Origin: Mesostigma viride
Taxonomy: Eukaryota > Streptophyta > Mesostigmatophyceae > Mesostigmatales > Mesostigmataceae
DNA length: 64,000 nt
Assembly: GCA_009746045.1 (NCBI GenBank)
Contig: RPFO01000079.1
Span: forward strand, 3,208,285-3,272,284
Direction of reading: 5' to 3'
The notes beneath the pieces are model-generated. The model had not been told where the DNA came from, made no database searches, and saw only the letters and a program-made list of their open reading frames with translations. Made by a program: the position numbers and the translations under genes. How positions within the stretch are numbered: the stretch's first letter is position 1; every line of letters begins with the position of its first letter. Shown piece by piece: positions 9,409-64,000 of the stretch.

Positions 9409-9448
9409 CCCGTATAAGCACGCATACCAGCACAAACATTAGGTATTA

Positions 9449-38400: not shown

Positions 38401-41400
38401 GGAGCCGCTGTCACTGTACCCCTCGTCCTCATCCTCGGGGTATTCACGCATCCCCCGGCGCGCCGCACCTTTGCCCACGACGCTCCCGCCCCGGTGACGC
38501 GACGAGTCCCCGTGATAACAGTCCCCTAGCTGCTGCAACTCCGCATGCTCTTGCTCATCCAACGCGGCCAGCATGGCGAGCCGCGCCTCCTCCTCCTCGG
38601 CCTCGTCCGCAAACTTGGTCCAACTAAACTGGACCTTCTCGGCGCTCCGGTTGAGGATCCGGAAGCTACGCGAGGAGCTCTTCTTGATGAAGGTCGGCGG
38701 GAGGTCAAGCTTGGCTACTGACAGCCGTACCTCCACCTCGGCACCCTTGCCCCGCAGCTGAGTGTACACGATATCGCCCGAGTCATAAGCCACCTCGAGC
38801 TCGCCCACGTAGGGGGATGCCAGCAGCGGGCAGAAGGAGACGGAAATCTGCATCGTCTCCTTGATGGCGAGCGAGGCCTCGCGGGGGGTCACCGAGAACG
38901 GGGGCGAGCACGTTAGCCGGAAGAGCGCGTCCTTGTTGCCGACGTTGGTCACGAGGAAGGACTTGGTCGCCGTCGACTTGACGGCCGTCTCGTCAAAGGC
39001 GACTGTGTCGGGGAAGTTGAGCGCAGCTGGTGGGGAGGGACGAGAGGGAGATTGCGGTTGGGAACGTGCGGTGGGTCGATTGGAATGGGTGGATGTTTGC
39101 AGCAAAGGGGTGGAGTGAGTTACGAGCGATGGCACAAGGCCCAGAGATGTCAGGGACTAGGAAAGAATAAGGTGCATGCGCCAGTGATTGAACCAGTGGG
39201 CAGTGGTGTCCGGAATCTTCAACAAACTAACAACTGATGGTCTCAATGATACCAATGACTTCTACGATTTCTTTATCAAGTTTTGGAGCGGTGAGCCAGG
39301 CTGGGGAGGCAGCCAGGCTGGGGAGCGACTCTGGCGATGAGCTCCGATGTGACCGCTAGGGTCTGCATGACATCAGCAGCAGGACGGTATCAACCCTAGC
39401 ATCGAACAAGACTTTCCTTGCCAGAACAGGGGCACTTTTGTCCCCAGAAACGCTGGCAGATATCGCCATGAATGAAAAAAGCAAAGGATGCTACAACCAG
39501 AACAGACTACTGCCATGTACCTCCTAGATAGGATCGTTCTGGTTTTCTAGATAGGAATGTTAAGTGAAGCACGCCTTGGCAGCCGAACGCACTCACAGGC
39601 ACCACAACCATCAGGCACGACGCTTTTGCTATAGTTAGGGTACTTCTCACCTCGGCAGCCGATCGCCCTCACGGGCACCACGAACTTCTCTCGTTCGGTT
39701 GCCACCACGATCTCCGCACCATAGTCTTCGATCGTGGACGGCGTGAAGGTGACCAGGAACTTGACCTCCATGCCCGAGGCGACCTTGTCGCTCTCCTCCG
39801 CGCGGCCTGTGGGAAGCATCGTGCCGGCCTTGCTGGGGATGGTGGTCACCGCAAAGTGCTGGTGGACGAGGGGCAGCACCTTGACGCGGCGCGCGACCTG
39901 CAGGTAGAGTGGTTGAAGGAAAGCAGTAAAAGGAACATAGTCAGAGGGAAGTGATTGGAGTGTGACCTGCAGGTAGGGTGGTTGAAGCAAAGCAGTAAAA
40001 GGAACATAGTCAGAGGGAAGTGATTGGAGTGTGACCTGCAGGTAGGGTGGTTGAAGGAAAGGTAGCCGAAGGAGCACGGTCAGTGGGAAGTAGTTGGAGA
40101 TTAAGCGGGCTGAGGGAAGTGCTCGGACGAGCGTGATTGCAGTTGAGGGGGTGGATTCCAATTCAATAGGGCGTGGTTGCGGGGCAGAGCACATGAGCCA
40201 GCGAGGGGGGGGAAGGGAGGGCGGCTAATTGCACGCTATAGATGTATGGCCAATGCACGTGTGGTGTCCGGCGTGCGGTGGTTTGCATGGAACAATCAAT
40301 CCAGCAACAGGGGCGAGTACCACGGGCATACACGCCCCCCCCCCCCCCCCCCCCCGAATCGCTCTATTCTTCACATTTGTTGCAGCGGAGGCAGCAGGGG
40401 CCCAGGCTAGGATAGCTGCAGAATCAAACTTAAAAACTCACGAATCTTTGAAACATCTAGTAAATTAAATAATCACATAGGTTTTTGTTTCAGGGAGAGG
40501 AGCGGGGGGAGGGGGGATGGAAAGAGGGCAAGGAAGGCAATCACTAGAACAGAGAGCGCCATCAGCCCAATGAGACATGTAACCAGTCCGTGCAAACAAC
40601 GTCCCTGTATCCCCATCCTTCATGCAAAGCCCCCAAATTCTAGCAAATGGAGGGACAAAGTTGCCATGGACTGTCTATGAAGTCATGAGTCCACTTGCCC
40701 ATGCAAAAGAAACTGCCACCTACTGAGCCCAAATATTTCGGTTGTTTCGGTTCAGCCCCAGCTGCCGCCCATCTCATGCCTCGTGCCTCCAAGTGCCGTC
40801 AGACAGTGCCTCCCTAAAACATGCCCGTCTGACACTGCAGCTGCTGAGTCCCACATAATACCATCGTGAGCTATGATGCGGACTTGAAAGCTCACATTGT
40901 CGAGGCAAGCAACTAATAGTAGACTCATAGGACTTGAAAGCTCATATTGTCGAGGCAAGCAACCAATAGTAAGCTCATAGGACTTGAAAGCTCATATTGT
41001 CGAGGCAAGCAACTAATAGTAGACTCATAGGACTTGAAAGCTCATATTGTCGAGGCAAGCAACAAATAGTAAGCTCATAGGACTTGAAAGCTCATATTGT
41101 CGAGGCAAGCAACAAATAGTAAGCTCATAGGACTTGAAAGCTCATATTGTCAAGTAAGCTCATAGGACTTGAAAGCTCATATTGTCAAGGCGAGCAACAA
41201 ATAGTAAGCTCATAGGACTTGAAAGCTCATATTGTCAAGTAAGCTCATGGGACTTGAAAGCTCATATTGTCAAGGCAAGCAACACATAGTAAGCTCATAG
41301 GACTTGAAAGCTCATATCTTCATAGATCCTTATTCGACTGTGAGTTGGCATTACAGCCGTCGCTGGCACTACAGCCATTGGCGCCCACCCACATTATCAT

Positions 41401-47699: not shown

Positions 47700-48270
47700 T
47701 GGTAGCTCGAGCCTGCCGTTATCTTGTCCGCGTGTTCGCGTCGTTCAGGATGATGAATATGAATGGAGATGGAAATTATGTGTAGCCTCGTGCATTGACA
47801 TTATGGCTGGCTTACGTGTAGGCCGTACCATATCGCTGGTATTCAACAAAATCATTGTTCAGGCCGAACCAATATTCAGAGATCGAGAAGGAAATGTACA
47901 GTGCGAAATATTGAATTCAGGGCACAAATCGGGAGTGGGAGCACACCGAGGCCCTGGCCACGCAGGTCCCTTGAAGATAGCGGCGCAGATGTGCCTTCCC
48001 CACTCACGGGACAAGGCGGCTCCCCCACCAGTCCTGCTCACCTTCCCCTCCCGTGAGGACAAGCAGCGGTTCCTTTCTCGTCGCAAGAGGTTGCACGACC
48101 TCACCTGGACGCTGGACGACGACCTGACCCCCGCTCAGCAGCAGCAGCGACGCGACCTGTGGCCGGAATACTCTCCGCCACAAGCAGGACCCCCAGAAGC
48201 CCAAGGTGTACTGGAGGGGCGGGGACCTGATGATCAACCACAAGATGTGGACGCCCCGGCTGCGTGCTAG
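47700..48270 (+). pseudogene. LINE ORF1-like fragment
   Basis: The plus-strand frame contains VLLTFPSREDKQRFLSRRKR and then TWTLDDDLTPAQQQQRRDLW, the C-terminal pattern of many LINE ORF1 proteins. A frame slip near 48165 moves the match to another frame (LRHKQDPQKPKVYWRGGDL). No ORF2 follows on this strand. It abuts a LINE 3-prime end lying on the opposite strand. Confidence 0.65.
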
Positions 48271-48289
48271 AATAGCTATCGATCCCTAG

Positions 48290-48690
48290 CTTGTATTAAA
48301 ATTAAATTAAATTATAACATGCCTCCGTTGGGAGATCATGTAGCACATATTCCTTGATGGGTGGGTGGAGTGGAAGGAGCCGCGTAATCGAACTAACCTA
48401 ACTCTAAGCTATCTAGTCTAGACAAATCCTAACTACCCTATTCATCAAAACACCGCTGCCTCTTGGGGGGAGGTGCCGGCTTGCCCACAGGGGCTGACCA
48501 GTGTGTGAGCCTTGACAATCTTCTTCCACCGCGTCTTGTTCTGCATGGCAGTCCAAAGAAGGGAGAGAGAGTGGATGCGGTGTTCAAACTGGGCTGGGAC
48601 CACTAGGTCGTCCAGCAACATCTGGATATATTTCGTGACATGTTTCCCTACCCTTTTGGGAATGCCCTTGGGGCCAGGCAAGGTCAGAAT
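48290..48690 (-). pseudogene. 5-prime-truncated LINE: ORF2 C-terminus plus 3-prime end
   Basis: On the minus strand, KHVTKYIQMLLDDLVVPAQF lines up with the C-terminus of the LINE at 18 kb (TWTYVTQLLEDAG). The 3-prime UTR that follows matches 8266-8402 and ends in a TTTAA-type tail. It sits directly next to the tail of the larger LINE at 48691. Confidence 0.65.
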
Positions 48691-51600
48691 TAATTAATTA
48701 ATTAATTAAACTCGTGCTCCCGTTGGGGAGTCACGGAGCACCGAAGTGCTTTTAATCCCTGTGTGTGCACTACAGGAGAAAGGGCAGAGACCCCCAGTCT
48801 CCTTCATGCCAAAGGCATGCCACAGCTGCAATCGGGCGCGGCTAGCTAAAAGGACAGGCTAACGATCCGGCAAACTGTGGGTGCAATAAGACCCATGTGA
48901 GCATGTCATAGCAAGGAGCGTGGGCAAGTAATCTGAACATAGCCAGGGCGTAGCATGGCTGTACTAGAACTAGGCTAAGGCTATGGCTGGTTGTGTACCG
49001 TGCGTTGGCGGCACGTGACTAGGTTTGTTGGCACAGCTAGGCAAACATTCTAGGCATGGCAAGGTCAGAATATGCCGCCCTGGCTGGCCAAGCCGCTGGG
49101 GGCCTGCTGGCCAGACCAAGGGCGGTGTCGACCTGGCTGGTGCGAGCAAGATGTCCCGTACAAATGCTATCCTACGCTGTCTAATCTCGTCCGAAATACG
49201 AGGCATGCCCTTATACAAAGACTCTAATGACGGGCGCTTGGAACTGAAACCCTACGTTCAGGACCTGTCGGAGCATCCTGTAAACCGTGCCGTCTAGCTT
49301 AGCTGCCAGTGTTGCAGTGAGTGTCCACGCCTCGGCGCCATACGTGAGCACCGTGAGGACGAAGACCTTGAAGAGCATGCGCTTGCGGTGCTCGCCCAGG
49401 CCCTTGGAGCGCCAGTAGGTGTTGAGCGAACGAAGCCTAGCCCAGGCCAGGCCGATGCGGATGTCCACTGATCGTCGGCGGCGGTGTCAGGGAGCCAACT
49501 CCCCAACAGTTTGAAGCGATCGCGGAACGGGACCTCCGTCCCGTCGAGCAGGCAAGGCTGCGGCGGTGTACTGGAGGCCCCAATCACCATCACCTCAGTT
49601 TTGACACTAATCTCCAACCCCACCGCCCTCGCCTCAGTCCAGGCCAGACAGTCCAGCCAGGTCTGAATGTGCTCGGGGCGCGCGATGAGGGTGGTGCATG
49701 CATGCATGTCATCCGCATAAATCAGGTCGGCCAGGCGGTAGCCAGGTTGAACCCCGACGTGCTCGCGCTCGTTACTTAAGGATGTCCAAGCCTGGCTCGA
49801 ACCCGTTAAGAGCAGTAAAGCGCGCGCACGTGCCCGCCGCATGACGTGATCCTCGACAATAATGAACAGGTCTGGGATCGACAGGACACAACCTTGCCAC
49901 ACCCCGTGGTGAAGGGGGAATGGTCCCAGGGTGGTGCCTTCCGCAGTCCGCACTACTGCCTGTGAGCCCTCATACAGTCGACGAATGGCAGCAATAAACG
50001 CTGGTGGCACCCGATCCAGAGCTAGGATGGCCTAAAGAGCCAGTCCCAGAGGACCGTGTCAAAGGCCTTGATATAGTCAACAAAAATGAAGACCAGTGGC
50101 AAACTGTTCGGGCAAAGGCGACGCACCTCCTCCATCAACCGGCGCGCGACAAACACAGCCATGACAGTGTTACGACCACGACGGAAACCCATCTGAGACT
50201 CACCCAGGTGTGGCTCCAGCGCGGCGCGGAGCCTGTGCAGCATCATGCGCATGAAGACCTTCAGCGCGGCGCTCTGGAGGCAGGTCTACACCCCGGTAGT
50301 TACCGGGGTCAGCAGCAGAGCCCTTCTTGTACAACATGACGCGGATATGGCCGTCTGCCACTCAGCAAGCGGAGGCTCATCAGAGAGCAGGACACAGTTG
50401 CAGAACGCCAGCAGAAGATCCCTCACCGCCGGGTCAGGGGTCTTCAGCAGCTCATGCAGCCAAAAGGTGCTCGGCATGCACCGACCGCCGCGTCGTACCG
50501 GAGGCGAGCTAGGGCGCGCCGTCCAATTCCTTCAAAGTGAAGGGGTGGACGACGTCGTTGGTGGCAAGGCAGCCCCGGCTCCTGCAAGGCAGGGACTTGG
50601 TAGTCCGCGGCCGAGGAGGGGGGCGCCGGCGGCGGCGGGGGTCCGGCGACCCCGATCGAGACGGGCGGCCGTCTCGGGGTCAGTGAAGCGGCGGGGGGGG
50701 GGGCGCGAGCCCCACCTGTCAAGCCGGACTGAACATTGTGGGCCAACCAGCGGTCAAGGCTTACCGGCGCCGCACGTGCCGTCCCCCGTGTGCTCCACCA
50801 GGCCGGGTGCGCTGCCGCCGGCCGCCGAGCCGGTCAAGGTGGTACCACATGTCCTTGCCCTAGTTGCGAGCTTGGCATGCAGGCCTTGGCATCTGCGATG
50901 CACTGGGCCGGCTCTGCGTCCTGAGCGTGCTCGTAGGCCTCCACGAGGGCGGCCTTGAGCACCGGTTGCTGCAGCGGGTCCCGGTTACGGTTACGCTTGA
51001 GGCGGTGCCGGGCGGCCAAGACCTTGGGGTCCTGGCGGTAGAGCGGGCCGGCCAGCCGAGGCGGCTGCGGGGCATGACCGGCAGGTGCCGCCGGGGCCGC
51101 CAACAAGGGGGCATGTGCAGGTCGCAAAGCCCGCAAAAATTGCGGCGTTGGGGGCACCCTTGTCCAGCTCGTCGACGTCCGCCCGGGCGTCCAGGGCCGA
51201 CAGGTACTCCAGTCGGCACCGGTTCCGCTCGTGCTCGGCGTCCGTCCAGTCCTCAGGATCTCCCCGGACTGGGCGTAGGGCAGACCAGTCAGGGCGGGCC
51301 ACTGGGGCGCGGCGCTCGGGGACATGGAACCGGAGCTGAATGGACGCGCGCACCAACCTGTGGTCAGAGCACACCGTGGGCGTGTCAAACACTCGGGTGT
51401 CCAGAACCGAGGTGCACCTGGGCTGCCGTACCACCACGTAGTCCAGACAGGCCTGACGGCCGTTAGGGCCACGAAACGTGACCAAGTCCTGTGAGCTAGG
51501 GACGTTGGAAGTCACAGTTGACAGCAACCATCCCGCTATCCCGCATGCAAAAAGGCAGAAAACAGGTAAGTGTTGTCGTTAGTTAGCAGCCGTGTCAGCA

Positions 51601-52155
51601 GGCGCAACTGAGCGACTGCCAGCAGCTAGTGCCCATGACGGGGAGCGTGGCATTGGCGTCGAGCAGCATAACCAAAAAGTGGCGGGCCGGGGTGGCCCCC
51701 TTAAGGCTATGCAAGTCCTCGAAGAACTTCTGGCGTTCCAATTATCACTGACTGGCCCAGGTAGTAGACTGGTCACTATGGGGTGCGTAGCCCACCCCCA
51801 CCGTGCTCAGGTGGTGTTTAGACCGCCCCTCGACGGAGGTGAAATGTGCTACCATAAGGCGTGGGGTTAGAAACTTCAGCGTGCTAAGGCTGGCAACTGC
51901 CAGCGGCGAACACAAAAGACCAACACCACCTTGGCCCGTGAACATTGTACCACTACCAGCGAAGTAAAACCGCCAGCCACCCGCCAGGCCGGGGATCAGT
52001 GCATGCGCACCACGCCAAGTGGCACCGAGCGGCGATGCTCTTGCGCACCTAGAATAGACACACGATGGGCTATCCAGAAGGCAACGAGCTCCTCTAGGGC
52101 GTCCCCAACATCTACTGCTCCAACCTAGGGCCATTGCTGGTACTTTTGACGTCAT
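48691..52155 (-). pseudogene. Decayed LINE with endonuclease and reverse transcriptase
   Basis: Read on the minus strand: an APE-type endonuclease in pieces (GGVGLLCSPLAV near 51.9 kb, CLDYVVVRQP and SDHRLVRASI near 51.4 kb). Then reverse transcriptase: MGFRRGRNTVMAVFVARRL and FIFVDYIKAFDTV near 50.1 kb, GVWQGCVLS near 49.9 kb, and the catalytic YADD near 49.71 kb. Then the post-RT region (YGAEAWTL, ISDEIRQRRIAFVRDIL) to about 48.97 kb. Several frameshifts break it, so it is not active. The 3-prime end carries a hairpin-forming gtgctccgtgactccccaac and a TTAA tail at 48691-48711. It is related to the copy at 17.8-18.8 kb. Confidence 0.85.
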
Positions 52156-52654
52156 GAAAGCAGCGTTTTGGACTAGTGGAATATGATTTTACAGCATAAA
52201 AAGTCCATTTTATCATGAATGAACATGGCCAACAACCCCAAGTGCCCCTAAATTTCTCAATATTTGTAGAGAAATGCTACTTCTCATAATTAAAACCTGC
52301 ACAAATGCACAATTTGGGGCATGCATGTGAAAGTTTGAAGTACAAATTCACAATGAGGTTTTACATTTTTCAATTATTAATGGTATCTCATTCTTCAATC
52401 AATCAATTTGCAATCGTCCAAACAATTTATTCATTTCATACATGTCCGAATATGTTGAAAGAACACATGCAAGTGCTCAATCAGCGTGGACCCCCTTGGA
52501 CGCGCCCCACCATATATACATTGGACACGTCACCCCAACTACTAAACTGCCCAAAGTCACGGTAACTGATCCAACTACTATGTACATCTGCATTTCTCCA
52601 CGTTGCGGTGGGCAATTACGTGCAAAACGCGATTTCGTGCAAAGTCCTCGCCCA
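52156..52654. other. AT-rich spacer, no gene seen
   Basis: Separates the LINE from the unknown gene block. It is clearly more AT-rich than its neighbours. No repeat, RNA gene or convincing coding frame is seen. Confidence 0.4.
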
Positions 52655-53377
52655 TCATCGCTTGCCAGGTCGATATGAAGGAATGTTGTCCCAGCTGGCG
52701 CCTTCCTTCAGGAGAGTAACATGTTCTCTAGCGAACTTCAGAGGGAAACGAAACTTTTGCTCGCACTCATTACTCCAACCGAGGTCGTGCCCTTCATCAA
52801 ACCATCTGAACACCACCTTCTCCCTCTCTTTGCCCAGGAGGGTGCCAAAGAGCGGAAAATCTTCCTTCTTGGGGTACTTGTGCTCCCAGTTTATGCACAC
52901 GTCGTCTACCCATTTCGAACTCCAACCTCCGCGACTCAGTTTCGCGCCATCCATAAAGCGCATCCGGACGTCCGGCCGAACGTCCCTGATTCGGTTTTCG
53001 GCCGTCGCATCTCTGCCCTGACCACCACCCTTCTGCGGCTGTGCAGGTTCGTCGGCACCCTCCGTCTCCTGCCCCGCCCCTCGCCTGCCCCCTCCCCGAC
53101 GTTTTGCCTTCTGCCCCTGCGCAGCCGCCGCCTCTGCCATCAACTCTTCGTACGTTTTTTCTGGCTGACCGCACGGTAAGGCTGGTGCGTGAGTTGGTGC
53201 GTTGGGTGGGAGCTCGTCCCCTCCCGCCCCCGGTTGTGCAACTGGTTCGCCGACCGCGGCCTGGCCAACAACACGGCCGGCCTCTCTGGACACAGTCCCA
53301 GACGCGGATCCACGGGGAAACCGAACTGGAGTTTCTTCTTCGCCTTTCCCTGCACGTAAGCACATGCCAATTAACAT
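52655..53377 (-). CDS. Hypothetical protein, or last exon of the neighbouring gene
   Basis: Open frame of 240 codons. The N-terminal half is low-complexity Gly/Ala/Pro/Arg with KTYEELMAEAAAAQGQKAKR. The C-terminal 90 residues look folded and Trp/Phe-rich (WVDDVCINWEHKYPKKEDF, then VVFRWFDEGHDLGWSNECEQ). I do not recognise the family. A TATA-like atatata at 53444-53450 lies about 65 bp before the ATG at 53377, which favours a separate gene. A good acceptor (TTACGTGCAG) at 53350 would instead make it an internal or terminal exon starting GKGEEETPVRF. The data do not decide between these. Confidence 0.5.
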   Translation of the reverse strand: MLIGMCLRAGKGEEETPVRFPRGSASGTVSREAGRVVGQAAVGEPVAQPGAGGDELPPNAPTHAPALPCGQPEKTYEELMAEAAAAQGQKAKRRGGGRRGAGQETEGADEPAQPQKGGGQGRDATAENRIRDVRPDVRMRFMDGAKLSRGGWSSKWVDDVCINWEHKYPKKEDFPLFGTLLGKEREKVVFRWFDEGHDLGWSNECEQKFRFPLKFAREHVTLLKEGASWDNIPSYRPGKR

Positions 53378-53462
53378 GAATACGGAAGGGTCGTGTGAGA
53401 AATCAATGAAGCCATGGACTGATGCAAAAAAACTTATGTAGAAATATATATTAAGGTACTTA

Positions 53463-53777
53463 TTAAACTCGTTTATTGAAAATGAAATTTACCGGCCGAA
53501 TGTACCGTTGGAGCGTGGAAGGGCATCCTTGGTCGATCGAAGATATCGTAATAGGTGCGGCCGATGTCCCTGGCGGCGCCTCAACATCGACCACCTCAGT
53601 CGGGCGCATCAATCCGGCAAACGCCGGCCCTCCACCTGAGACTTTCGGCGGACCCTCCACGTTACGAGCCTCCAATACCCTCTTCTGCAGTGGGGTGCTC
53701 GCAACAAAATCCGTGTCAGCCGACGGCTCCGGATCGTCATCCTCATTCAGCAGTATCGTGTTCGGGCATTGCTCCAT
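53463..53777 (-). CDS. Hypothetical short acidic/proline-rich open frame
   Basis: 104 codons starting MEQCPNTILLNEDDDPEPSA; no known domain. An AATAAA lies at 53472-53477 just before the stop. The neighbouring minus-strand frame is also open upstream to about 53950. It may be the C-terminal part of the large gene ending near 54287, after frame slips in the C-rich tract between them. It could also be an independent small gene. Confidence 0.35.
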   Translation of the reverse strand: MEQCPNTILLNEDDDPEPSADTDFVASTPLQKRVLEARNVEGPPKVSGGGPAFAGLMRPTEVVDVEAPPGTSAAPITISSIDQGCPSTLQRYIRPVNFIFNKRV

Positions 53778-53954
53778 CCCCGTCGAGCGGGGGGCAAAGT
53801 CATCACAACCGTCCTTCCTGACGACGGTACGGGATCGTCACCCAGACCCAAAGAAACCGAGGCGAGGGCGGGGGTCCCCTCAACCGGGGGTCCCCATGAA
53901 TCCTGACGAGGCCTCATTCCCATCTGTCGGACACGACCGCCTCCCGTAAATCGG

Positions 53955-54225
53955 GAACGCCCGCCGGCGCTACCAGTAACAGGCCGCGAGCCTGCTTCCT
54001 GCTGGCGATCCCCATCCTCATCACAGATACGCCCGCCGGCGTTTCCAGTAACAGGCCGCGAGCCTCCTTCCTGCTGGCGATCCCCCTCCTCATCACAGAT
54101 ACGCCCGCCGGCGTTTCCAGTAACAGGCCGCGAGCCTCCCTCCCGCTGGCGATCCCCCTCCTCATCACAGATACGCCCGCCGGCGTTTCCAACGACAGGC
54201 CTCGAGTCTCCTTCACCAGCACGCT
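53955..54225 (-). repeat. 72-bp coding-type tandem repeat, about 3.5 copies
   Basis: Minus-strand reading gives 24-residue units with ETPAGVSVMRRGIASRKEAR as the core. The frame is open across all copies. Each unit contains GAAACGCCGGCGGGCGTATC, a near match to the block-wide 20-base motif but in the opposite orientation. The frame differs from that of the upstream exon (stop at 54287). The C-rich tract between could hide an indel. Confidence 0.75.
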
Positions 54226-54286
54226 GGCGCTTACCTCCCCCCCTTTTGTCTTCATCCCCCCCATTGTCTCCTCCCGCGAGCCTCCA

Positions 54287-54492
54287 TCATCCCGACTGCG
54301 CTTTTTCCCTCCCCTTCCATCTCCTCCCCCGTCCCTCTCCCCCCTCCCCTCCTCCCTCCTCCCCATCCCCATCCCCTTTCTCCCCCTCCGCCTGCCCCCC
54401 ACCCACCCCGGGCGGGTGCCCCTCAGCAATATCCTCCTCCCCCTCTTCCTCCTCCCCCTCTTCCTCCTCGTAAACCTCTTCCTTCTCCGAGC

Positions 54493-54551
<59 letters not shown>

Positions 54552-57500
54552 GAATGATGATCCCCGTCGTCTTCGTCGTCCACGACCACGGCAAAGTCCA
54601 TGTCGACGTCTTGCCACCCATCTTCAAGAAGCCGATATTTGATAAGTCGGACCAGGCGCTTCCACCGGCGGATATGGGCGGGTAACCCGAACACCAGCAG
54701 AACTCTGGAGGGTCCCTTCAACAGGGCCTTGGTGATCTGGTCAACCACATCCCACGCGGCATACCTCAAACGGGAGGAGGGTAAGGGTATCTGGCTGTCG
54801 ACCGGAATACAGTCTTGATCCCACTCGCGCAGGTTCCTCCACTTCTCGTTGCTGTCAGCTGTCAGGTCCAGCACAGCAAACGCCTGGTCCTTCAGCTTCC
54901 CAGGAAGGTCTTCAGACCCCGTGTACAACTCGTCCACCACCTTCGTCACCACCAGATCCTTTCTTTTTTCGTTTTCCTTCCATGTCATTGTCCTGTATGC
55001 GATCCAGTCGGGTCCCATCTTCACCCCGTCCCAATAGGTGAAGGCTTCCAGCCTGTCCCACCACCCCCTCTTGGCCTTGGCAGTCCCCTCCTCCTTAGCC
55101 GCCGCCTGCACCTCCTCCTCCGCCGCCGCCTCCTGCTGTGGCACACCCAGCAGATGTTTGGTCTTCACCCCCAAATCGTCATACAAATGACGGGGGTGGG
55201 AAGCGAGCAGCCCTCTCGGGAACTTCCAGTCCTTCTGGTCGACCACTTTCCTTTTAGCCGGCGGAAGGTCCCTCAGCGTGAGAATGATCGCCCTCGTGGC
55301 CGTGACGATCACCCGCCAAAAGTCTCTGGTCAGGCGGCAGTCGGCGATGAACTTGTCGAGGTCCGTGGCGACGGTGCCCTTCAGCTTCACGCCAAACACG
55401 TGCTCCCTCACCAATACGGGGTCGAAAGTCCCGTTTAGTTGTTTGCAAGCGGCCATCAGCTCGGGGTTCTCCAGGAACTTGATGTGGGCGAATTGCTTTG
55501 CCGCCTCTATCAAATTCTTGGCGACTTCCATTATTTTTATCAGGTTGCTGGGAGGGGCCTCACAGGACATGATCGGCGCTTGGATCAGGCTGTCGAAGTA
55601 CTGGAAACTCGCAAGTTCCCGATGCGCGGTGAAAATGGACAGTTCGTGCGCCTTGTCTTTAGGGCGCGTGTCAAGGAAGTCTTGCCGAGCCGCGATATCC
55701 TGTGCGATCGCCGGCTTGCCGTCGACAGCGGGCTTCAAAGGGTCCTCACACCAGAACAGCCAGCGCTGCATGAAGTTCTTCTGGTCCGGCCCCCACTTGT
55801 CCGTCTCTTCAGCCCCTCCTGCCTTGTCGCCTGCGCCGTCCCCTTCGGCCTTGGCTTGCTCTCCTTTCTGCCAAAAGGGCTTCACAATCGCCCAGATCTT
55901 GCCGTACAGAGGAGTTGGGAGAGACACGCCCTTCCCTCTCTTGACGGGTCCATATGCCTGGTAGGCCCGGTGCACATCCCCCAGCGCTGAGCCCCACGTT
56001 GCCTTGGCTTGGGCTGTGTCCTCGGCGTTCATGGCGTTCCCGAGCTGCCTGACAACTTCGATCATCTTGCCGACTTGTTCGGTAACCTGCATCCCCGTAG
56101 GGCAACAACGCGCAGAGACACATCGACAGTCCTCCCAAATAAGCACAACTCAACTGAGAACAAGAATACGACTGACAGAAACGCCGGCGGTCGCATCTTG
56201 ACCAAAATATGGCATGCTAAGGTGGAACATGAAAACCCCTTATAGAAACGCCGGCGGTCGCATCTTGACCGAACTAATGGCATACTGAAATTAACACAAG
56301 AAAACCACTTATAGAAACGCCGGCGGTCGCAACCTGGCTTACCTTCTGTTCACGGATCTGCCACCAGGTCGGCAGGATGGTCTCACCCTTGAGCATCTGC
56401 ACGTCCACCCCCCCGAAATTCGTCCAATCAGTTGCCCACTCCTCCAGCTTCGCCGCGGCCACGGTCTTCGTGACCTCCTGCTCCTTCCCTCCCCGCGCAA
56501 CGACCCTGAGCTTTTCCGCCTTCATGAAACCATTCAGCATTGCCTGGTACCACACAGATCTTTGGTCCACCGTCATATTGTCGGTGACCAGTTCGAATTT
56601 CACCGATTTGATGAGTGTGGTAAAGTGGTTCCCGTCCAGCACGAGAAAGCCGCAAATGGCTGGCGGCAACGGTGTCTTCTTCTCGAGTGGAGCCATCTCC
56701 CAGGCGGACTTGCACAAACTGTCCAAAAGCGCGGCCTTTCTCACGTCCACGGGCTTAAGTGAGTCCAGAATATCGGCCGGTCCTGTCAGAACCGCGGTGG
56801 AAGCAGCTTCGGCCATTCCCTTGGCCGAGCTCGTTCGCAGGTAGATATCAATCTCTTTGTCAGTCATTGCGCGAGCGTAGCCAGCCTTCATTGTCCGTGC
56901 CCCCCCATCTCCCCGAAGAGTTGCGCGAGCTGACGCTGGGTGCCTTCCTTTTTCATCCAGTCATGAAAACTGTTGGGGCACCGGTCAGCCAAAAACTGGA
57001 ACGAGTACCGCCACACAGGAATCACCAGCTTGTCGTGGCCGTAGTCGGACTCCGAGTTTGCAAAAATGGTGGCGTTCTGCTCGGCTCTAGACAGATGCAA
57101 GTCTCGTGCGAGGAGCTTCTGAGGCCCCACGAACAGGTTCCTTGTCCACACCCGATTTCGATGCACCAAGGCTTTGGACATCTCATCGAGGTCCCGAGGC
57201 TGAACGGCAAGCTGCTTCCGCAACCGTTTGCCCTTCGCGATCTCATCGTTCACATCCAGGATGTCATCATCATCCTGCGACACCGGGGACTTCTCCCATT
57301 TCTCAAGCAGAGACACGGGAGCATCCGCAACCTCCACCTCCTTTCCTTTCCCCTTTCCCTTCAGCGCCTTCCCCTTGTAGGTCGCAAGTGCTTCGGAGAG
57401 TCCCTTCTGGTGTTCGTCGACGGCAGCAGTCCACGTACTATCTATTTTCATGTTCTCGCGGCGCGCGTGCTGGTCGAGGCTGATTGAGTACAGGATGGCC

Positions 57501-59663
57501 GCGTGGGTCGCCCTCTCGGCCTGCACGTACTGCGTTGATGCGAAAAAATCAGGAAAGCATAACCAAAAGGAATAAAGTAAATGCCGATTGAGAAACGCCG
57601 GCCGTCGCAACCTACATGAAACCTGAACCTCAACATCAAAGCCCCCCTCACGACAGAGGTATACTTACCTCGTTCCCCTTAACAATGATATGAAAAAATC
57701 AGGAAAGCATAACCGAAAGGAATAAAGTAAATGTCACACTTGAGAAACGCCGGCCGTCGCAACCTAGATGAAACCTAAACCTCAAGATCAGAGCCCCCCT
57801 CACAACAGAGGTACACTTGGCTCATTTCCCTCAACGATGCGAAATCAGGAAAGGAAGTAAGTGTTAGTCAAAAGGAAGTAAGTGTCACACTTGAGAAACG
57901 CCGGCCGTCGCAACCTACATGAAACCTGGACCTCAAGAACAAAGCCCCCCTCACAACAGAGGTAGACTTACCTCATTCCCCTCAACCGCTGCTGCTTCAG
58001 CCGCTTTCTTCGACCCCTTCGCGATCTTCGGAGACTTGTCCCGGCGGGCATCGTGTTCCTTCAACATCTTGATCAGAGTCTTGGCGTCCGCCATCGTCAC
58101 CGTCTTCAGTTTACACTTCCTCTCCTTCCCTTTGCCCTCGAACAGGTTCTCCTCCATCCACTTTATCAAGGCCTTGGCGCTCGGGATCTCCTCAGGCTGT
58201 GTGGCGCCATCGGGCGCGCACGCATTCTTCACGATCAACTCAGCGACTTGATGGAGAGTCATCATCTGGTTCCGTACCTCAGGTGGGGCTGTTTCCGTTC
58301 TCACCTCGGCCACAACCCACTTTGCCAACTTCTTCAGTTGATAAGCATCCGCTTGCTCCTTAAAGCGTGTCATTTTCGCAGTATCGCCGTCGCTTCCACC
58401 CGCGCCCTCTGACACAGGCTCACCGACAGCGATAGCCCCCTCTCCCTGGAGATTTGCCCCACCCTGACGACCGGCTTCCTGCAAGAACATTATCAACGGA
58501 AGATTTTTAATGTAAGAAAAGTGTAGAGAAACGCCGGCCGTCGTAACTCTGTCAATTGAGGACGAACCTAAACTTTCAATTTGTAAGTCAACGGTAACTT
58601 ACCCTTCCCCCCTCTGCAGTGGAACCACCGTAAGATCCACTTCCCCTCCTGTCACCGCCCTCTTGCTGCTCGAACGGACTTCCCTGTAAAAATAGCAAAC
58701 GCGATTGTCCATTCACAAGAAAAAAATTACTACAAAAATAAACAAGGATATACGCACGCAAACCTTTTCAATACAAGTAAACCGGAGAGGAATCTGACGC
58801 ACTCATGTACCTGGGTGCTTCCCGCCATTGAGCGGGCTTCTCTTGCACCAACATCCTCTTGCCGGCCCTGCGAACATTTCAACGGAAAGTAAAAATCCGC
58901 TTAGTTGTCGGAAATGACATGTCTGGCGAATATTGCAAAAAAATGCGTATTGTATTTCACGACATCAATTTAATGGGCGGAGACTTACGAAGATCGGCCC
59001 GCCACCTTCCAAATTGCCCAGCGTCATATCGAAAACATCGAGGACTTCCCCTCCATCGACCCCCTTCCCCCTTCCCCTCTGCCGCGGCGGGGGCATATCG
59101 CCCGTCGCGACCGGCTTGGAAGTCGCGGGGGGATCCCTTGCGGTTGAGGGCACTGCGGCCGACTCGTGCACACTCTCCCCCCTCTTTTGGGCTACTGCGG
59201 CAGGCGCGGCATGGGAGGGCGCGGCGGCTACTGTCTCTGGCGCATTCTGAGCCAACCGACGCAACCTTAGCTCCTGCTGGAGCAGGGTTTCGAAACGAGG
59301 CATGAATGTGCGCTTGGAGGTATAAGGCACCTTGGCGACTTCAGGTTTGTCATTAAGGATGTCTTGGTACAGCGCGAATTGCTGTTCACGAGTGCCATTC
59401 GCGAGTCGCTCAAACCGCTCAATCTGAATCCGCTTAACCGGATCGTCCACCATCTCAAGACCACCGTGGTACTCATCCTTCCCAGTGACCGCGGCAAAGC
59501 TGACACCAGATTCCACCATTGGGGGCGGCGTGCCCTCCCTTGCACGCTTGTGAGGAGGCTGTTGTGGGGAGGCGCCTTGGGCCTGAACTGGTTGCCCTTC
59601 TGACCCTTCCCCCCTAGGGGGAGAGTCGCCGACCACCTGCGATGTAGGGCCGCCCTTTTCCAT
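54287..59663 (-). CDS. Large multi-exon gene of unknown function with Asp/Glu-rich tail
   Basis: Exons: 58989-59663, 58811-58867, 58603-58683, 57972-58478, 56343-57529 and 54287-56086; donors are GTAAG-like except GTACAT after exon 2, acceptors mostly YGCAG, and all introns are phase 0. Exon 5 needs one extra base: its first frame stops at 56888 and the continuing frame opens with an overlapping ATG at 56891, next to a run of seven C (56900-56906). With that the product is about 1435 aa. The N-terminus is Gly/Pro/Gln-rich; the middle is helical with many charged residues. A conserved-looking segment ends RVLLVFGLPAHIRRWKRLV. Then come about 18 Asp (54496-54550) and a Glu/Gly-rich tail. I do not recognise any domain. 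Introns 3, 4 and 5 (before exons 4, 5 and 6) hold one, three and three copies of the 20-base hairpin motif. Confidence 0.7.
56178..56333 (-). repeat. Three tandem hairpin-motif units in an intron
   Basis: Motif copies at 56178-56197, 56245-56264 and 56314-56333, in units of about 68 bp that also share tggcat and aaaacc stretches. They fill most of the 256-bp intron between exons 5 and 6 of the large gene; the copy nearest the donor begins 10 nt from it. Confidence 0.85.
57592..57985 (-). repeat. Three tandem 152-bp units including the exon 4 donor
   Basis: Motif copies at 57592-57611, 57743-57762 and 57895-57914. Each unit also carries a copy of the exon-4 end and donor: the real one is at 57966-57985, a second copy near 57665-57685 keeps an intact GAG|GTAAGT, and a third near 57815 has lost it. 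The unit is about 151 bp. Confidence 0.85.
58528..58547 (-). repeat. Single hairpin-motif copy in intron 3 of the large gene
   Basis: GAAACGCCGGCCGTCGTAAC on the plus strand, about 55 nt from the donor. This copy has T at position 17, which restores pairing with A4. Confidence 0.8.
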
Positions 59664-59712
59664 CTGCAACACAAAACAAAAAAATTGGAAAAAACATACG
59701 AGTCAGCAGGAA

Positions 59713-59845
59713 GATGCGCCCCACGTCGCAACTCAATACAAAAAATGCATCATTATGTCAAGGTACAAACAACGTTATAATTCAGAATGAACAGAGATTC
59801 ATAACAAGAGAACGACGCACTAAAAGATGCGACCGCCGTCGCAAC
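59713..59845 (-). repeat. Two hairpin-motif copies between genes
   Basis: GATGCGACCGCCGTCGCAAC at 59826-59845 forms a perfect 5-bp stem with a 4-base loop. GATGCGCCCCACGTCGCAAC at 59713-59732 is the second. They lie between the stop at 59886 and the ATG at 59663. A possible donor (GTG|GTAACG) near 59935 would make this spacer an intron instead. Confidence 0.8.
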
Positions 59846-59885
59846 TTTCGTCAATTCACTCTCTATACAAACAACTCTATGTCCC

Positions 59886-60620
59886 TCATAAAGAATCAAT
59901 TGGCAAGGAAATGCAAAAAAATTCCGTTACCACCTCCGTCGACCCATAAGTGGTTCGCGAATGGGAAATCGCTGCTGATTTTCGGTCGAGCCCTTCACGG
60001 TATTTTCGAAATCTCGAGGCAAGGTTGCGCGGAAGAGGGCCCCCCTCAATCATGCGTGCGATCGGACTGGCCATGGAAACGGATACCTGGTTCCTGGACT
60101 GCCTTGCACGGTCAACCATCTTGAAACTTCCCCGGAGAAGGAAATCAGACGTCAGACGGTTGAATATGCGAACGTCAAGATTTGACCAACCCATCATCCA
60201 TTCCACCACCTTCTCCGCGGCATCATGGAAGACCTGCCTCTCATCCGCCACTCCTCGAGACCCAAACACACAATCGGCCGTGTTATCGTCGTGCCTCTTA
60301 AGGCGAATGTTCACGTCCTCTTTGTCATCATCCATTTCCGACAGCCGAATTACAGCCCTTTTGGCTCCGTCCACTCCATCCTCAAGAAGGACGTCCATCT
60401 GCGCCCCTCCCACACAATTGTTGTCAACGTATTGTTGCAAATGACGGGAAATCATGTCCTTTCCAAAAGCTACGATGTGTTCCCCACACAGACCCATGTC
60501 GGTAATTGACAGCTTTTTACATTTCCTATCCCGGCACTTCTTTTCGGGATCCTTCTCAAAAATCCGGAAAACAGCGTCCTGATATGGACGTCCCCTTATG
60601 TCGACCGTCAGACTGGACAT
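59886..60620 (-). CDS. Hypothetical protein with MYND-like half zinc module
   Basis: 244 codons from the ATG at 60620. Residues 29-48 contain Cys29, Cys34, Cys45 and His48 in the pattern C-x4-C-x10-C-x2-H (CRDRKC...LCGEH). This equals the first half of the MYND finger of the neighbour at 62234-62989. The rest is charged alpha/beta sequence without a known domain. The ATG directly follows CGCAG, as in the next gene upstream, so it may be a 5-prime-UTR splice acceptor. Upstream TATA-like tataaac near 60655 and a shared CCGGTATGTT precede the start. Function unknown; zinc binding and protein contact are inferred from the motif. Confidence 0.6.
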   Translation of the reverse strand: MSSLTVDIRGRPYQDAVFRIFEKDPEKKCRDRKCKKLSITDMGLCGEHIVAFGKDMISRHLQQYVDNNCVGGAQMDVLLEDGVDGAKRAVIRLSEMDDDKEDVNIRLKRHDDNTADCVFGSRGVADERQVFHDAAEKVVEWMMGWSNLDVRIFNRLTSDFLLRGSFKMVDRARQSRNQVSVSMASPIARMIEGGPLPRNLASRFRKYREGLDRKSAAISHSRTTYGSTEVVTEFFCISLPIDSL

Positions 60621-60735
60621 CTGCGAAACCAGAACATACCGGCCGCGAGTAGTTTATATTATTAAAAAAAACTGGCATTTATTAAGTCATCTTCATCTAT
60701 TTATGCGAGCTAAAATTTGAAGAAAATGCAACAAA

Positions 60736-60895
60736 GAAACGCCCTGGGGCGCAACTTCCTCAACAACCACTTTCTACGTACAAACGAATGGCAATCACAT
60801 CGACTACGATTGTCACTACATACGAATGTCCAGACAATATAATGTGTATGTAGAGGGGGGGCATTCAAGACCAGAGAAACGCCGGCGGGCGCAAC
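60736..60895 (-). repeat. Two hairpin-motif copies between genes
   Basis: GAAACGCCGGCGGGCGCAAC at 60876-60895 begins 5 nt after the stop codon at 60901. GAAACGCCCTGGGGCGCAAC at 60736-60755 is the second. Both can form a 4-bp CGCC/GGCG stem, with loops GGCG and CTGG. Confidence 0.85.
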
Positions 60896-60900
60896 TCATA

Positions 60901-61767
60901 TCAATATAGACTGTCCCGCGACTCGTTCCACTCTCTGCAGGTTTTGCAACAACCGATCGAGCGAACTCTCGGAACCTCTTTCGCCGCCATTTCATCGACA
61001 CGAGCGAACATCTCTTCTTTGGCGGCCACCAACTTTGCCTCCTTGTTGCCGGTGTCAGGATAGATTTCGGACCTCCTCGTCTTCATCGGGGCCACTCTCT
61101 CCAAATACTCTGCACACAGAGAATCCTGCTCCTCCTCCACAATCGCCTTCACGCCGGATACAATCGCTTTGGCTTTTGTTTCCACGCGAAAATCGAACTC
61201 TCGTTGAGTTATCAGCGGAATGTCGGCGAGTGCAAAACACATACGCCGATAAAGTTCGCTTACATCCGTGTCACGCGAGTCGGCAAAAGGTGTCGTCATC
61301 AAAAAGCATCTCAAGCTACTCCAACCATTTTCTTGGGCGCCGGCAACGTAGCCTCCCTTTGCCAAGTCCGCACCTGTCGCGGAGTCTTTGACTATCCAAT
61401 CTTCAAGGAAGTACTCGTCTCCCCTGGTGAAATCAAAATTTACACCCACGACCTCTCCGACAGTCATGTCCAGGCGAAGTCGCAGGGCCCCCCCCGCCAA
61501 TCCAGGTCCGAGGGCGCCCGCCATTCCAAGTCCGCGACTGAGGGCATTTTCGATGTGACGAGAATGTTCTTCGTGCTTTCGGCAATACAAGTCAAATCCG
61601 AGAGCGGTTTTCTTGCAAGTGGACACATCACACTTGCGCGGCGCCCCTATTGAGCGAGCAACACTCTGAATGACAGTGGCAACCGCTTGGTGTTGTTGAA
61701 GTCGTTGCCAATCCTCCATCAGGAGGTGACTAGACGAATCGGACGAATCTTCCGTCGAACCGGACAT
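60901..61767 (-). CDS. Hypothetical protein with MYND-like half zinc module
   Basis: 288 codons from the ATG at 61767 (MSGSTEDSSD). After a Ser-rich start, residues 46-65 carry Cys46, Cys51, Cys62 and His65, again C-x4-C-x10-C-x2-H (CDVSTC...YCRKH). A segment LRLRLDMTVGEVVGVNF ending WIVKD resembles LRVRADACVGAVPLNMNF ending PIVRD in the MYND protein at 62234-62989, so the two look like relatives. Near the end there is a further Cys cluster (CCKTC). The ATG follows TCGCAG. The preceding spacer has the same CCGGTATGTT seen before the next gene. Function unknown. Confidence 0.6.
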   Translation of the reverse strand: MSGSTEDSSDSSSHLLMEDWQRLQQHQAVATVIQSVARSIGAPRKCDVSTCKKTALGFDLYCRKHEEHSRHIENALSRGLGMAGALGPGLAGGALRLRLDMTVGEVVGVNFDFTRGDEYFLEDWIVKDSATGADLAKGGYVAGAQENGWSSLRCFLMTTPFADSRDTDVSELYRRMCFALADIPLITQREFDFRVETKAKAIVSGVKAIVEEEQDSLCAEYLERVAPMKTRRSEIYPDTGNKEAKLVAAKEEMFARVDEMAAKEVPRVRSIGCCKTCREWNESRDSLY

Positions 61768-61878
61768 CTGCGACAAGTTACGATAACATACCGGCCCCGG
61801 AAAATAAAATTCAAAAAACGTTTTGAAATTTTTTTATTGTACTTGTTTATTAATACGAAGGTTTAAATTTGGCGCAAA

Positions 61879-61898
61879 GAAACGCCCCAAGGCGCAAC
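61879..61898 (-). repeat. Hairpin-motif copy after a stop codon
   Basis: GAAACGCCCCAAGGCGCAAC on the plus strand, 33 nt after the stop at 61932. Stem CGCC/GGCG with loop CCAA. Confidence 0.85.
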
Positions 61899-61931
61899 TT
61901 GTCGAACAGCAATATGGCGATAAAACATTAT

Positions 61932-62177
61932 CTATTCAATGTGCGATTGATGTGCTGAAACCTTCCAGACTTTGACACTGTCCGGTATCACCGGACTCGG
62001 ACGAGGAGTCGAGTCGGAAGCGAGCCAGTAATCCTCGACTATTTTTTTGATGTACAATGGAAGACTCCTTCCATTATGTCGAAGTGTGTCGGTCCTTTGC
62101 CTTTTGGCCAAACTCTCCTTAACCTCCACCATTTCCTGCGCGTAGGAGGAAAATGATACGTTATAAACATTAAACAT
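61932..62177 (-). CDS. Hypothetical small basic protein
   Basis: 81 codons from the ATG at 62177, or 66 from the ATG at 62132, which follows a CGCGCAG that could be an acceptor. The protein is basic in its first part (KESLAKRQRTDTLRHNGR) and ends with PDSVKVWKVSAHQ. The KVWKV segment faintly resembles KAWKVFVTN in the small protein at 63058-63297. No known domain. Confidence 0.45.
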   Translation of the reverse strand: MFNVYNVSFSSYAQEMVEVKESLAKRQRTDTLRHNGRSLPLYIKKIVEDYWLASDSTPRPSPVIPDSVKVWKVSAHQSHIE

Positions 62178-62233
62178 TAAACATTAAATATAACATCATA
62201 TAAACAAGTTATTACTCTACATTTCAAGTTTTT

Positions 62234-62989
62234 CTAAGAGGCAGAGCCGTCGTGGAAGTTGAAGGAGAAGTCGACATCAGACCCCATAGTTTTATCCAGT
62301 ATCGTCGTCACGTTAACCCCCCACTTCACCCCTGCCAGCACCTCCCTCGCTTGCCTCAGACGTTCGCATCTATCCTTATGCCTACTCCAGTCCGCACGCT
62401 GGCACTCCTCACTGCAATATCTGGCATCCCTACATCCTCTACACCACTTGATATGAGGTCCTGTTTCGCACCCACACCCCTCCTTGGAGCACTTTCGCGT
62501 ACTACGCATGCGATCCCCATCCCTCACGATCGGGTCAGAGAGCAAGAAAAAGTTCATGTTGAGGGGTACTGCCCCTACACATGCATCAGCCCTCACGCGC
62601 AGAGAATGCGTAACATTCGGGTAAAATGCGCGCCCGTAGGTGCACCCAAGCTGAGCCCCTTCCTCTTCCCCCAACTCTATCTTTGGCCCCTTTGTAATGA
62701 ACGACACCAAAAGGCGGAACTCCGTCCTTGGGTCTATGGGCACTCTTAGATCCATCTGTGGTCTGAAAAAACCCTCTTGAATACAGAAGTTCATATCAGC
62801 TAGCTGGGCGTACATAATTCTCTCCATTTGGCTGAACGAATCAAACGCCAATAAAACGGCCAAGTGGCGGCCTGTCCTCTCCTGCGCGACTCGAACTTCC
62901 TCGAATATGACACGCGACAGAAAGCGAACTTGTTTGAAAACGTTTTGAAGGACGCTTCCGTAGACTTCATTCACGATCTCGGACTCCAT
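62234..62989 (-). CDS. MYND-type zinc-finger protein
   Basis: 251 codons from the ATG at 62989, the first ATG after an in-frame stop. The C-terminal MYND finger spans residues 167-208: Cys167-x4-Cys172, Cys183-x2-Cys186, Cys192-x3-Cys196 and His204-x3-Cys208, with the typical ARYCSEECQRADWSRHKDRC. MYND fingers bind two zinc ions and usually mediate protein contacts, often in chromatin or signalling proteins. No SET or other catalytic domain is present. The N-terminal 160 residues are unrecognised but share a segment with the gene at 60901-61767. The two neighbours with half modules suggest a local gene family. Confidence 0.75.
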   Translation of the reverse strand: MESEIVNEVYGSVLQNVFKQVRFLSRVIFEEVRVAQERTGRHLAVLLAFDSFSQMERIMYAQLADMNFCIQEGFFRPQMDLRVPIDPRTEFRLLVSFITKGPKIELGEEEGAQLGCTYGRAFYPNVTHSLRVRADACVGAVPLNMNFFLLSDPIVRDGDRMRSTRKCSKEGCGCETGPHIKWCRGCRDARYCSEECQRADWSRHKDRCERLRQAREVLAGVKWGVNVTTILDKTMGSDVDFSFNFHDGSAS

Positions 62990-63057
62990 CTTTTTCAGGG
63001 AAAAAACGAACAAAAAAATTCATAAACATTAATTTATTATTTTATAATAACAAGTTA

Positions 63058-63297
63058 CTATTCCTCGGAATAGTTTTTTTTTATCCATTCCACAAACGCG
63101 TTTGTCACAAACACCTTCCATGCTTTCTCAAGAACTTGTCCCCCTGATGTTTTTGAGTATTCAAACTCGTCATCCGAAGAAACCAACTCCGGCACATCCT
63201 CCGAGAGGGTCTCTAAATTGTCATCGGCTTTCCTTTTGCGCTTGTGGTTTCCGAAGCATTTTTTTTGTTCTTCTTCTGACATTTGTTCTGCAACCAT
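63058..63297 (-). CDS. Hypothetical small charged protein
   Basis: 79 codons from the ATG at 63297 to the stop at 63058. A Lys/Arg-rich stretch (KRKRKADD) that could be a nuclear signal is followed by an acidic stretch (SEDVPELVSSDDEFEY) and a helical C-terminus with Trp/Phe. No known domain. It may be a small gene or a terminal exon. Confidence 0.4.
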   Translation of the reverse strand: MVAEQMSEEEQKKCFGNHKRKRKADDNLETLSEDVPELVSSDDEFEYSKTSGGQVLEKAWKVFVTNAFVEWIKKNYSEE

Positions 63298-63408
63298 GGA
63301 GTCATTTCGAGGGGGGTGTGGTTTAACGGGTGCAGATTTAAAGTAATTTGTTTTAGGTGAACGATGGTAAAAACTTCATTAGATATTTTAAACGAACGAG
63401 AAGCAACA

Positions 63409-63811
63409 GAAACGACGGCGGGCGTAACTATCATGGGAAACTTTGATATCACAAGATCACAATGGACACGAACGCGCTGCAACTTTCACGACATATTCTT
63501 CGACATCGAAAATAAAAAAGAAACGACGGCGGGCGTAACTATCATGAAACATTGATCTTACAAGAAGCTGACGGGGATGCAACTTTCACGACAAACACTT
63601 CGACATCGAAGATGCAAAAGAAACGACGGCGGGCGTAACTATCATGGAAAGATTGAGCTTACAAGATGACAAGTTAACTGACGGGGGTGCATCTTTCCCG
63701 AGATATATTTCGACATCGAAAAGGCAAAAGAAACGACGGCGGGCGTAACTAGCACAACCAATGTTGGTCATGTGCTCTTCCAGTAAGACAAGAAACGACG
63801 GCGGGCGTAAC
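63409..63811. repeat. Five-copy hairpin-motif array
   Basis: GAAACGACGGCGGGCGTAAC occurs exactly at 63409-63428, 63520-63539, 63620-63639, 63730-63749 and 63792-63811. The units are about 100-111 bp (the last 62) and also share ctttcacgac and ttcgacatcgaa. This version differs from the copies at 56-62 kb by A at position 7 and T at 17. No gene is seen upstream of 63298. Confidence 0.9.
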
Positions 63812-63877
63812 TATCACACGGTCCAGGAAGAGTGACGTTGGCAGAATTATGGTGTTTGTAAAAGGGGGGGGGGTAAG

Positions 63878-63934
63878 AGGGAGAGGGAGAGAGAGGGAGA
63901 GAGAGAGGGAGGGAGAGAGAGAGAGAGGGGGAGA

Positions 63935-64000
<66 letters not shown>
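63878..64000. repeat. GA/GGGA microsatellite at window end
   Basis: Impure GAGAGGGA that becomes a pure GA repeat running to the window edge. Its true length is unknown because the window ends inside it. Confidence 0.95.

Follow-up and report, generated by a model that had tools for sequence, protein, structure and literature searches.

The genome of the streptophyte alga Mesostigma viride contains, within a 64-kb stretch that we refer to as the window (GenBank assembly GCA_009746045.1, contig RPFO01000079.1; C2022:3208285-3272284 in the 440-Mb assembly), a 20-base palindromic motif that recurs in one block of genes (positions 53928-63811) of the window. These genes belong to a giant DNA transposon, of which the block forms the cargo arm, and the same motif occurs in the second arm of the element, together with a transposase-like gene. 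We propose that the motif is probably the binding site of a dimeric protein regulating the genes of the transposon. This reading is based on the single spacing of its half-sites, the lack of covariation between them, the constraint acting on the site, its placement in non-coding DNA (17 of 17 sites) and its occurrence throughout the element.

A palindromic motif with a single spacing

The copies conform to a symmetric consensus, GWWRCGMC-NNNN-GKCGYWWC (GWWRCGMCNNNNGKCGYWWC), which describes them better than the pattern given in a preliminary description of this DNA. The block holds 20 exact matches and one with 1 mismatch, whereas positions 1-53927 hold none at up to 2 mismatches, confirming the earlier statement that no copy lies in the rest of the window (53.9 kb); at 3 mismatches the counts are 23 in the block versus 7 in 1-53927. 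Dinucleotide-shuffled versions of the block (n=100) yielded a mean of 0.02 matches at up to 1 mismatch, with a maximum of 1, and even the earlier 20-base pattern has 18 matches in the window at up to 3 mismatches, against 0.03 expected from shuffles. A chance origin of the copies is rejected by both counts. All 17 copies listed in the preliminary description are present in the sequence, one of them at 57744 rather than 57743. When half-sites were paired in all orientations and at spacings from 0 to 30, 20 of 20 pairs proved to be inverted with a spacer of 4, and none occurred at another spacing or in another orientation; these are symmetric half-sites at a fixed spacing, as in the palindromic operator of a dimeric DNA-binding protein.

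As a control, the window was searched for dispersed 20-mers (up to 3 mismatches, simple sequence excluded, loci more than 400 bp apart) in six 10-kb segments and one 4-kb segment. Among the seven, only 50001-60000 contained 20-mers at 3 or more loci; segment 60001-64000, though within the block, contained no 20-mer reaching this threshold.

The genes of the block are encoded on the minus strand, and 18 of the 21 sites read better in one direction relative to them. Seven sites are found in introns of the large gene (54287..59663): three (56178, 56245 and 56314; 56178..56333) within the inferred intron 56087-56342, three (57592, 57744 and 57895; 57592..57914) in 151-bp tandem units within the inferred intron 57530-57971, and a single one (58528..58547) in the inferred intron 58479-58602. 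Upstream of the start codons, two sites (59713 and 59826; 59713..59845) occupy the gap from the ATG at 59663 to the stop at 59886, and two more (60736 and 60876; 60736..60895) the gap from the ATG at 60620 to the stop at 60901. One site (61879..61898) lies some 112 nt ahead of the ATG at 61767, and five identical sites with diverged flanks (63409, 63520, 63620, 63730 and 63792; 63409..63811) precede the ATG at 63282, all on the minus strand. The 17 sites of the region 54232-63811 are thus all outside inferred exon, which makes up 7.1 of its 9.6 kb, in keeping with the earlier view that the copies occupy introns and spacers; the exon borders used in this count differ by a few bases from the final set, and no site thereby enters an exon. 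The four remaining sites form an array of 72-bp units at 53954..54189 that had escaped the earlier list (53954, with 1 mismatch, 54026, 54098 and 54170); its three exact copies read better in the opposite orientation. Altogether, four tandem arrays bear the motif, and their repeat units differ in length (67, 72, 151 and about 105 bp).

A giant transposon with the block as its cargo arm

The cargo end of the transposon lies at 52097..52123 on the plus strand, where the sequence reads GGGCGTCCCCAACATCTACTGCTCCAA and then CCTAGGG. The 27 bases of GGGCGTCCCCAACATCTACTGCTCCAA recur identically at C1:1332767, elsewhere in the assembly, and at four transposase-end termini, with a different flank in every case, and the first 22 of them have 555 matches in the genome at up to 2 mismatches (292 + 263), compared with 0 for the reversed control. 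From this terminus onwards, the window (52097-64000) matches C1 from 1332767 to about 1344762, sites included; homology starts at 52097 with GGGCGTCCCCAACATCTACTGCTCCAA, and identity is 97.5% over the longest stretch (8.8 kb) and 93.1% over the first 2.2 kb. A further copy, on C69, is identical in two of the stretches compared, the third consisting entirely of N.

Among 100 exact termini listed, 15 pairs of neighbours face each other; 12 of these pairs are 23.8-41.1 kb apart, and the three longer intervals (62.6, 77.6 and 110 kb) may hold more than one element. The same terminal bases are present at both ends in 10 of 10 pairs examined, in inverted orientation, one end always being ...CCAACCT (as in the window) and the other ...CCAATTT. 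A perfect 4-bp target duplication accompanies eight of the ten, while one pair shares 1 base and one none. The copy on C1 measures 34.2 kb from its cargo end at 1332767 to its transposase end at 1366939 and is flanked by the duplication AGAT. With inverted terminal repeats and target duplications of fixed length, the element is probably a DNA transposon of the terminal-inverted-repeat (cut-and-paste) type. The far end of the window copy and its target duplication are not readable, because the DNA to the right of the window is N. The 601-aa open reading frame (ORF) that ends the large gene has at least 74 matches in the genome (its own included, one locus being in two pieces) at 94-100% identity, two of which carry an internal stop; such identity suggests that the family is young or was recently active.

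Between the arms of the C1 element lies a tandem satellite of about 71 bp (C1:1351664-1359191; L129 and L130), also present at L133, L137 and L140. It borders the transposase arm on the inner side, and its direction flips at about C1:1354479, in the manner of two mirror-image halves joined at that point. A stretch of about 245 bp close to the cargo terminus (window 52175-52410) is 72% similar to the sequences bordering the satellite (C1:1351444-1351665 and 1359190-1359413).

Genome-wide distribution of the motif

The consensus has 6,851 exact matches in the genome versus 23 for the reversed control, and a stricter motif pattern has 3,172 + 2,986 matches at up to 2 mismatches versus 64 + 63. 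Confinement to a single block, as described earlier, therefore holds within the window, while genome-wide the motif occurs thousands of times. On C1, each of the 69 exact places listed for the stricter pattern is either enclosed by two facing termini or no more than 20 kb inward of a terminus. Six of them depend on the 77.6- and 110-kb intervals; without the long intervals, 63 of the 69 still fall in the 20 kb on the inner side of a listed terminus, which amounts to about 2% of C1, and the other six are within 31 kb. Similarly, the list for the consensus, which reaches 2.93 Mb of C1, has 57 distinct places, of which 52 are at most 20 kb inward of a terminus and five at most 31 kb. The 34.2-kb element has 29 sites (23 in the cargo arm and 6 in the other arm), and the genome total would be covered if, as we estimate from half the number of termini (555), there are some 280 elements, each having about 25-29 sites. 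In other collections, exact matches to the pattern comprise 4 and 58 stretches of viral contigs and 31 of prokaryote contigs, all single and chance-like; no second site at up to 1 mismatch was found in the loci examined.

This distribution bears on the earlier suggestion of a very short mobile or introner-like repeat that spreads, and also on a self-spreading repeat similar to the palindromes of chlorophyte organelles. Copies in both introns and spacers do recall the repeats of Volvox organelle genomes, at least in the portion of that work available (PMC2670323). Nevertheless, the copies listed are found inside large elements or next to them, and the arms of the motif are not self-complementary. 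An independent short mobile repeat, which would be dispersed apart from larger elements, is largely refuted by the genome search, and we consider self-spreading highly improbable.

The second arm and its transposase-like gene

A 739-codon ORF in the second arm (L134:1814-4030) contains acidic motifs at intervals (HTDYAENYQ, WSDNCSMQFKSR and HGKGEVDGAGG) that, judged by eye, resemble the core of a DDE transposase. It has no sequence match in Pfam or PDB, and a search for viral relatives of the transposase exon returned nothing useful; together with the 4-bp duplications, the lack of a Pfam match possibly denotes a little-described superfamily. Six sites are located upstream of the gene and three in two intragenic stretches with intron-like borders. 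All nine read in the same direction relative to their gene. Since the consensus was derived from the window, without the sites of the transposase arm, the latter provide a test of it: six of the nine match exactly, and the other three miss the last base only.

The presence of the motif in both arms, and in arrays of duplicates, raises the question of whether the sites are bound by the transposase, as a transposition enhancer, or cut by a nuclease. Subterminal transposase-binding repeats of the Ac and En/Spm type form clusters that begin and end a few hundred bp at most from the termini. The sites described here show no such clustering: the first ones lie about 1.9 kb inside the terminus in the window (52097 to 53954) and about 1.5 kb inside it at C1:2261058 to 2259564, and the sites extend to about 12 kb, so that they are less likely to serve as end repeats bound by the transposase. 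Moreover, the termini themselves carry a different sequence. As for a nuclease, the layout is reminiscent of the 22-bp pseudopalindromic target of the homodimeric homing endonuclease I-CreI, as far as the available part of the source describes it (PMC6035192), yet no nuclease family was found among the scanned ORFs, which are a subset of those of the element. Either variant of this explanation appears improbable to us.

Constraint on the site and symmetry of its halves

Within the arrays, a single one of 80 site columns is variable, whereas 40 of 96 columns vary in the flanks, taken as 12 bases to each side (Fisher 7e-12). The comparison of the window (55206-64000) with the C1 copy points in the same direction: none of 340 site bases differs, whereas 59 of 2,061 other non-coding bases do (Fisher 2e-4), as do 93 of 6,156 exon bases. 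The site is therefore conserved against its flanks, and in non-coding DNA, as an operator is.

The variation that is permitted within the site is restricted to A/T swaps at positions 2, 3, 18 and 19, A/C at position 7 and A/G at position 4. All 72 cells at these four A/T positions hold A or T, mixed without a fixed order. Symmetry resides in the set of bases allowed in each half rather than in the individual copy. The site also contains several CpG steps. Such independent variation of the halves, without covariation, is what would be expected of two half-sites read in duplex DNA.

The hairpin and a possible role in RNA

The preliminary description had taken the palindrome for a hairpin maintained by compensatory base pairs. 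We compared pairing and covariation with shuffles for 11 distinct copies read on the plus strand and, as this strand misses the G-U pairs of a transcript, for 18 distinct copies read in gene sense (transposase arm included), with the same outcome. On the plus strand, pairing is 65.9% (67.2 in shuffles) and covariation 0.045 (0.054), four of the eight possible pairs being invariant; in gene sense, the values are 73.6% (75.1) and 0.146 (0.148). The unslid register pairs best (sliding by 1-3 bases gives 11.7-47.7% and 25.4-59.0%), as it would in any palindrome. With no covariation above shuffles on either strand, a hairpin RNA is rejected, and of the earlier notion of a structured element used by the block, it is the use as a marker of the block, now recognized as part of a giant transposon, that survives, not the structure. 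A tRNA identity of the motif was likewise rejected, and an Rfam scan of the window returned 0 matches at gathering scores.

An RNA-level element in introns and the 5' leader, that is, a splicing or retention signal, perhaps in the form of a weak hairpin, which would limit the gene products, is the leading rival to a DNA-binding site, and we regard it as possible, if unlikely. The reading direction shared by 18 of the 21 window sites and by the nine of the transposase arm is what an RNA signal would show, while three copies of the 72-bp array read better the opposite way. Their location within inferred introns, or ahead of start codons that in several cases come after a splice-like CAG, would also suit an RNA signal, yet two introns of the large gene are devoid of sites. 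With respect to folding, sense-strand pair 4/17 is G-U, A-U or G-C in 18 of 18 copies, with overall pairing no better than in shuffles, and two of ten 60-nt sense folds have z below -2 (-3.15 and -2.08); conversely, covariation is at the level of shuffles, and pairing fails at 2/19 in 12, at 3/18 in 16 and at 7/14 in 10 of the 18 copies. Swaps restricted to A/T at unpaired positions would not be expected of an RNA loop.

A putative binding site of a dimeric regulator

We favour instead a motif that acts as double-stranded DNA and would be read by a symmetric protein dimer, with one subunit on each GWWRCGMC half and a 4-bp spacer between them; the variation within the half-sites would suit contacts in the DNA grooves. 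The regulator, most simply encoded by the element itself, would bind the sites in leaders and introns and might switch or repress the genes of the element together, in an operator-like manner, and tandem duplication would then have multiplied the sites locally. A more elaborate version, which we find rather doubtful, would make the motif the private genome-wide regulon of the element: one element-encoded dimer would read the leader and intron palindromes of both arms, the roughly 6,850 sites in hundreds of copies would form one circuit in which copy number is sensed by titration, and the intronic sites would couple binding to splicing or elongation.

Several observations weigh against a dimer-binding site within such an element, the chief one being polarity, as seen in 18 of the 21 window sites, in the transposase arm and in the unequal halves. 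In gene sense, position 17 is T in 16 of the 18 variants and position 4 is G in 12 of 18, these variants not being mutually independent. Unequal halves are not needed by a pure homodimer site, and common descent or a role in RNA may explain them. Nor is every site kept: the one at 53954, in the first 72-bp unit, is degenerate in the window and exact in C1, and falls outside the substitution comparison given above. Sites are missing from two introns of the large gene and from the short gaps upstream of the ATGs at 62989 and about 62141. No DNA-binding protein that might be the binder was found among the scanned proteins of the element, of which only the one with a MYND finger reaches the Pfam cutoff. 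Finally, 70 of the 100 termini listed, which are a part of those in the genome, lack a facing partner among those listed, many contigs being short.

Genes of the block

The minus-strand genes begin with ATGs at 63282, 62989, about 62141 (by eye), 61767, 60620 and 59663. Four starts are directly preceded by CAG, resembling a 3' splice site (59663, 60620 and 61767, as well as 53927, by eye). Stretches of 19-36 nt of the form GTATGT...GCAG lie ahead of three of the ATGs (59664-59699, 60621-60639 and 61768-61791) and may be very short introns or trans-splice-like acceptors. The large gene (54287..59663, minus strand) has inferred exons at 58989-59663, 58811-58867, 58603-58683, 57972-58478, 56343-57529 and 54287-56086, separated by inferred introns bordered by GT...AG. 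Five of the six exons (675, 57, 81, 507 and 1,800 nt) consist of whole codons; inside exon 56343-57529 (1,187 nt) the frame shifts, and it was kept as found. The length of the 601-aa ORF differs among copies of the element, and a (CAT)19 run at 54493-54550 encodes poly-aspartate near its end.

The other genes, all on the minus strand, comprise a small ORF of about 73 aa (63061..63282), a 251-aa ORF with a MYND zinc finger (62234..62989; zf-MYND, 2.5e-07), a 288-aa ORF of no known family (60901..61767; weak PHROG match, E 0.018) and a 244-aa ORF of no known family (59886..60620; weak matches only, with E 0.073 in PHROG and 0.53 in PDB). In a Pfam scan of ten block ORFs, none except the MYND finger reaches the cutoff (weak E values of 0.016 and 0.07), and pieces of the 601-aa ORF match no Pfam family at 0.1 apart from one weak match below the cutoff. 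PDB sequence searches with three block proteins gave nothing informative, and an AlphaFold model of the 288-aa ORF from its single sequence was uninformative (mean pLDDT 37). A known viral block received no support: four block proteins searched against viral contigs and one against phages found no relatives, and nine searched against PHROG gave nothing below E 0.01.

Surroundings of the element

Left of the terminus at 52097, positions 48000-51700 resemble, by eye, a decayed non-LTR (long terminal repeat) retrotransposon. A large axonemal HYDIN gene occupies 20435-40224 on the minus strand, its longest ORF having as best match the HYDIN chain 7sqc_F0 (801 bits), which we take to be a Chlamydomonas structure. 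By eye, the sequence at about 44.3-46.8 kb resembles a plastid L13 gene. Many near-perfect minisatellites without the motif (such as 25-bp x 8, 30-bp x 12.5 and 50-bp x 5.4) are found at 1-20000 and 39895-41317.

Comparison with known systems

The motif marks a large, apparently recent transposon family with many unknown genes in a 440-Mb green-algal genome, and a conserved leader and intron site shared by both arms offers a direct handle on its regulator. If the proposed reading is true, this would be a eukaryotic case of operator-like autoregulation by a giant transposon. In the literature searched, no title or beginning of an abstract names this site or element; this search did not cover Repbase, where the element may be named.

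Giant cargo-carrying DNA transposons of eukaryotes are known, and the present element shares with them, according to the part of a review available, a size of tens of kb, termini of its own and extra genes (PMC6431247). It differs from them in having two arms around a satellite of about 71 bp (as in the C1 copy), a transposase-like gene without a Pfam match and a palindromic site throughout the element. This comparison is one of general features; Starship, Maverick and Teratorn are named in the same literature.

Short repeats in introns have several precedents. In the introners of Amoebophrya, the repeated unit is an entire intron that has inverted repeats and is bounded by direct repeats where it meets the exons, in the available portion of their description (PMC7789003); repeated sequence in introns is common to both, whereas here the motif is a small part of an intron and also lies upstream of genes. 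In the organelle genomes of Volvox, short palindromes that fold into hairpins occupy introns and spacers and make up most of the non-coding DNA, as stated in the part of that report available (PMC2670323), while the motif described here shows no covariation and sits in one transposon family. The target of I-CreI is, in the accessible part of the source, a 22-bp pseudopalindrome (PMC6035192), and by our own alignment the arms around its 4 central bp are alike; here, in contrast, the sites number in the thousands and no such protein is among the scanned ORFs. Medusavirus carries a 24-base palindromic motif, resembling an immediate-early promoter, upstream of many of its genes (PMC8557863). From what is available of that study, both systems have in common a palindrome that precedes many genes of unknown function in one genome and prefers intergenic DNA. 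The medusavirus motif differs, however, in its sequence and in its location, mostly 40-70 bp from the start codon, and the available portion of that account mentions neither introns nor arrays, in both of which the palindrome of the Mesostigma element is found.

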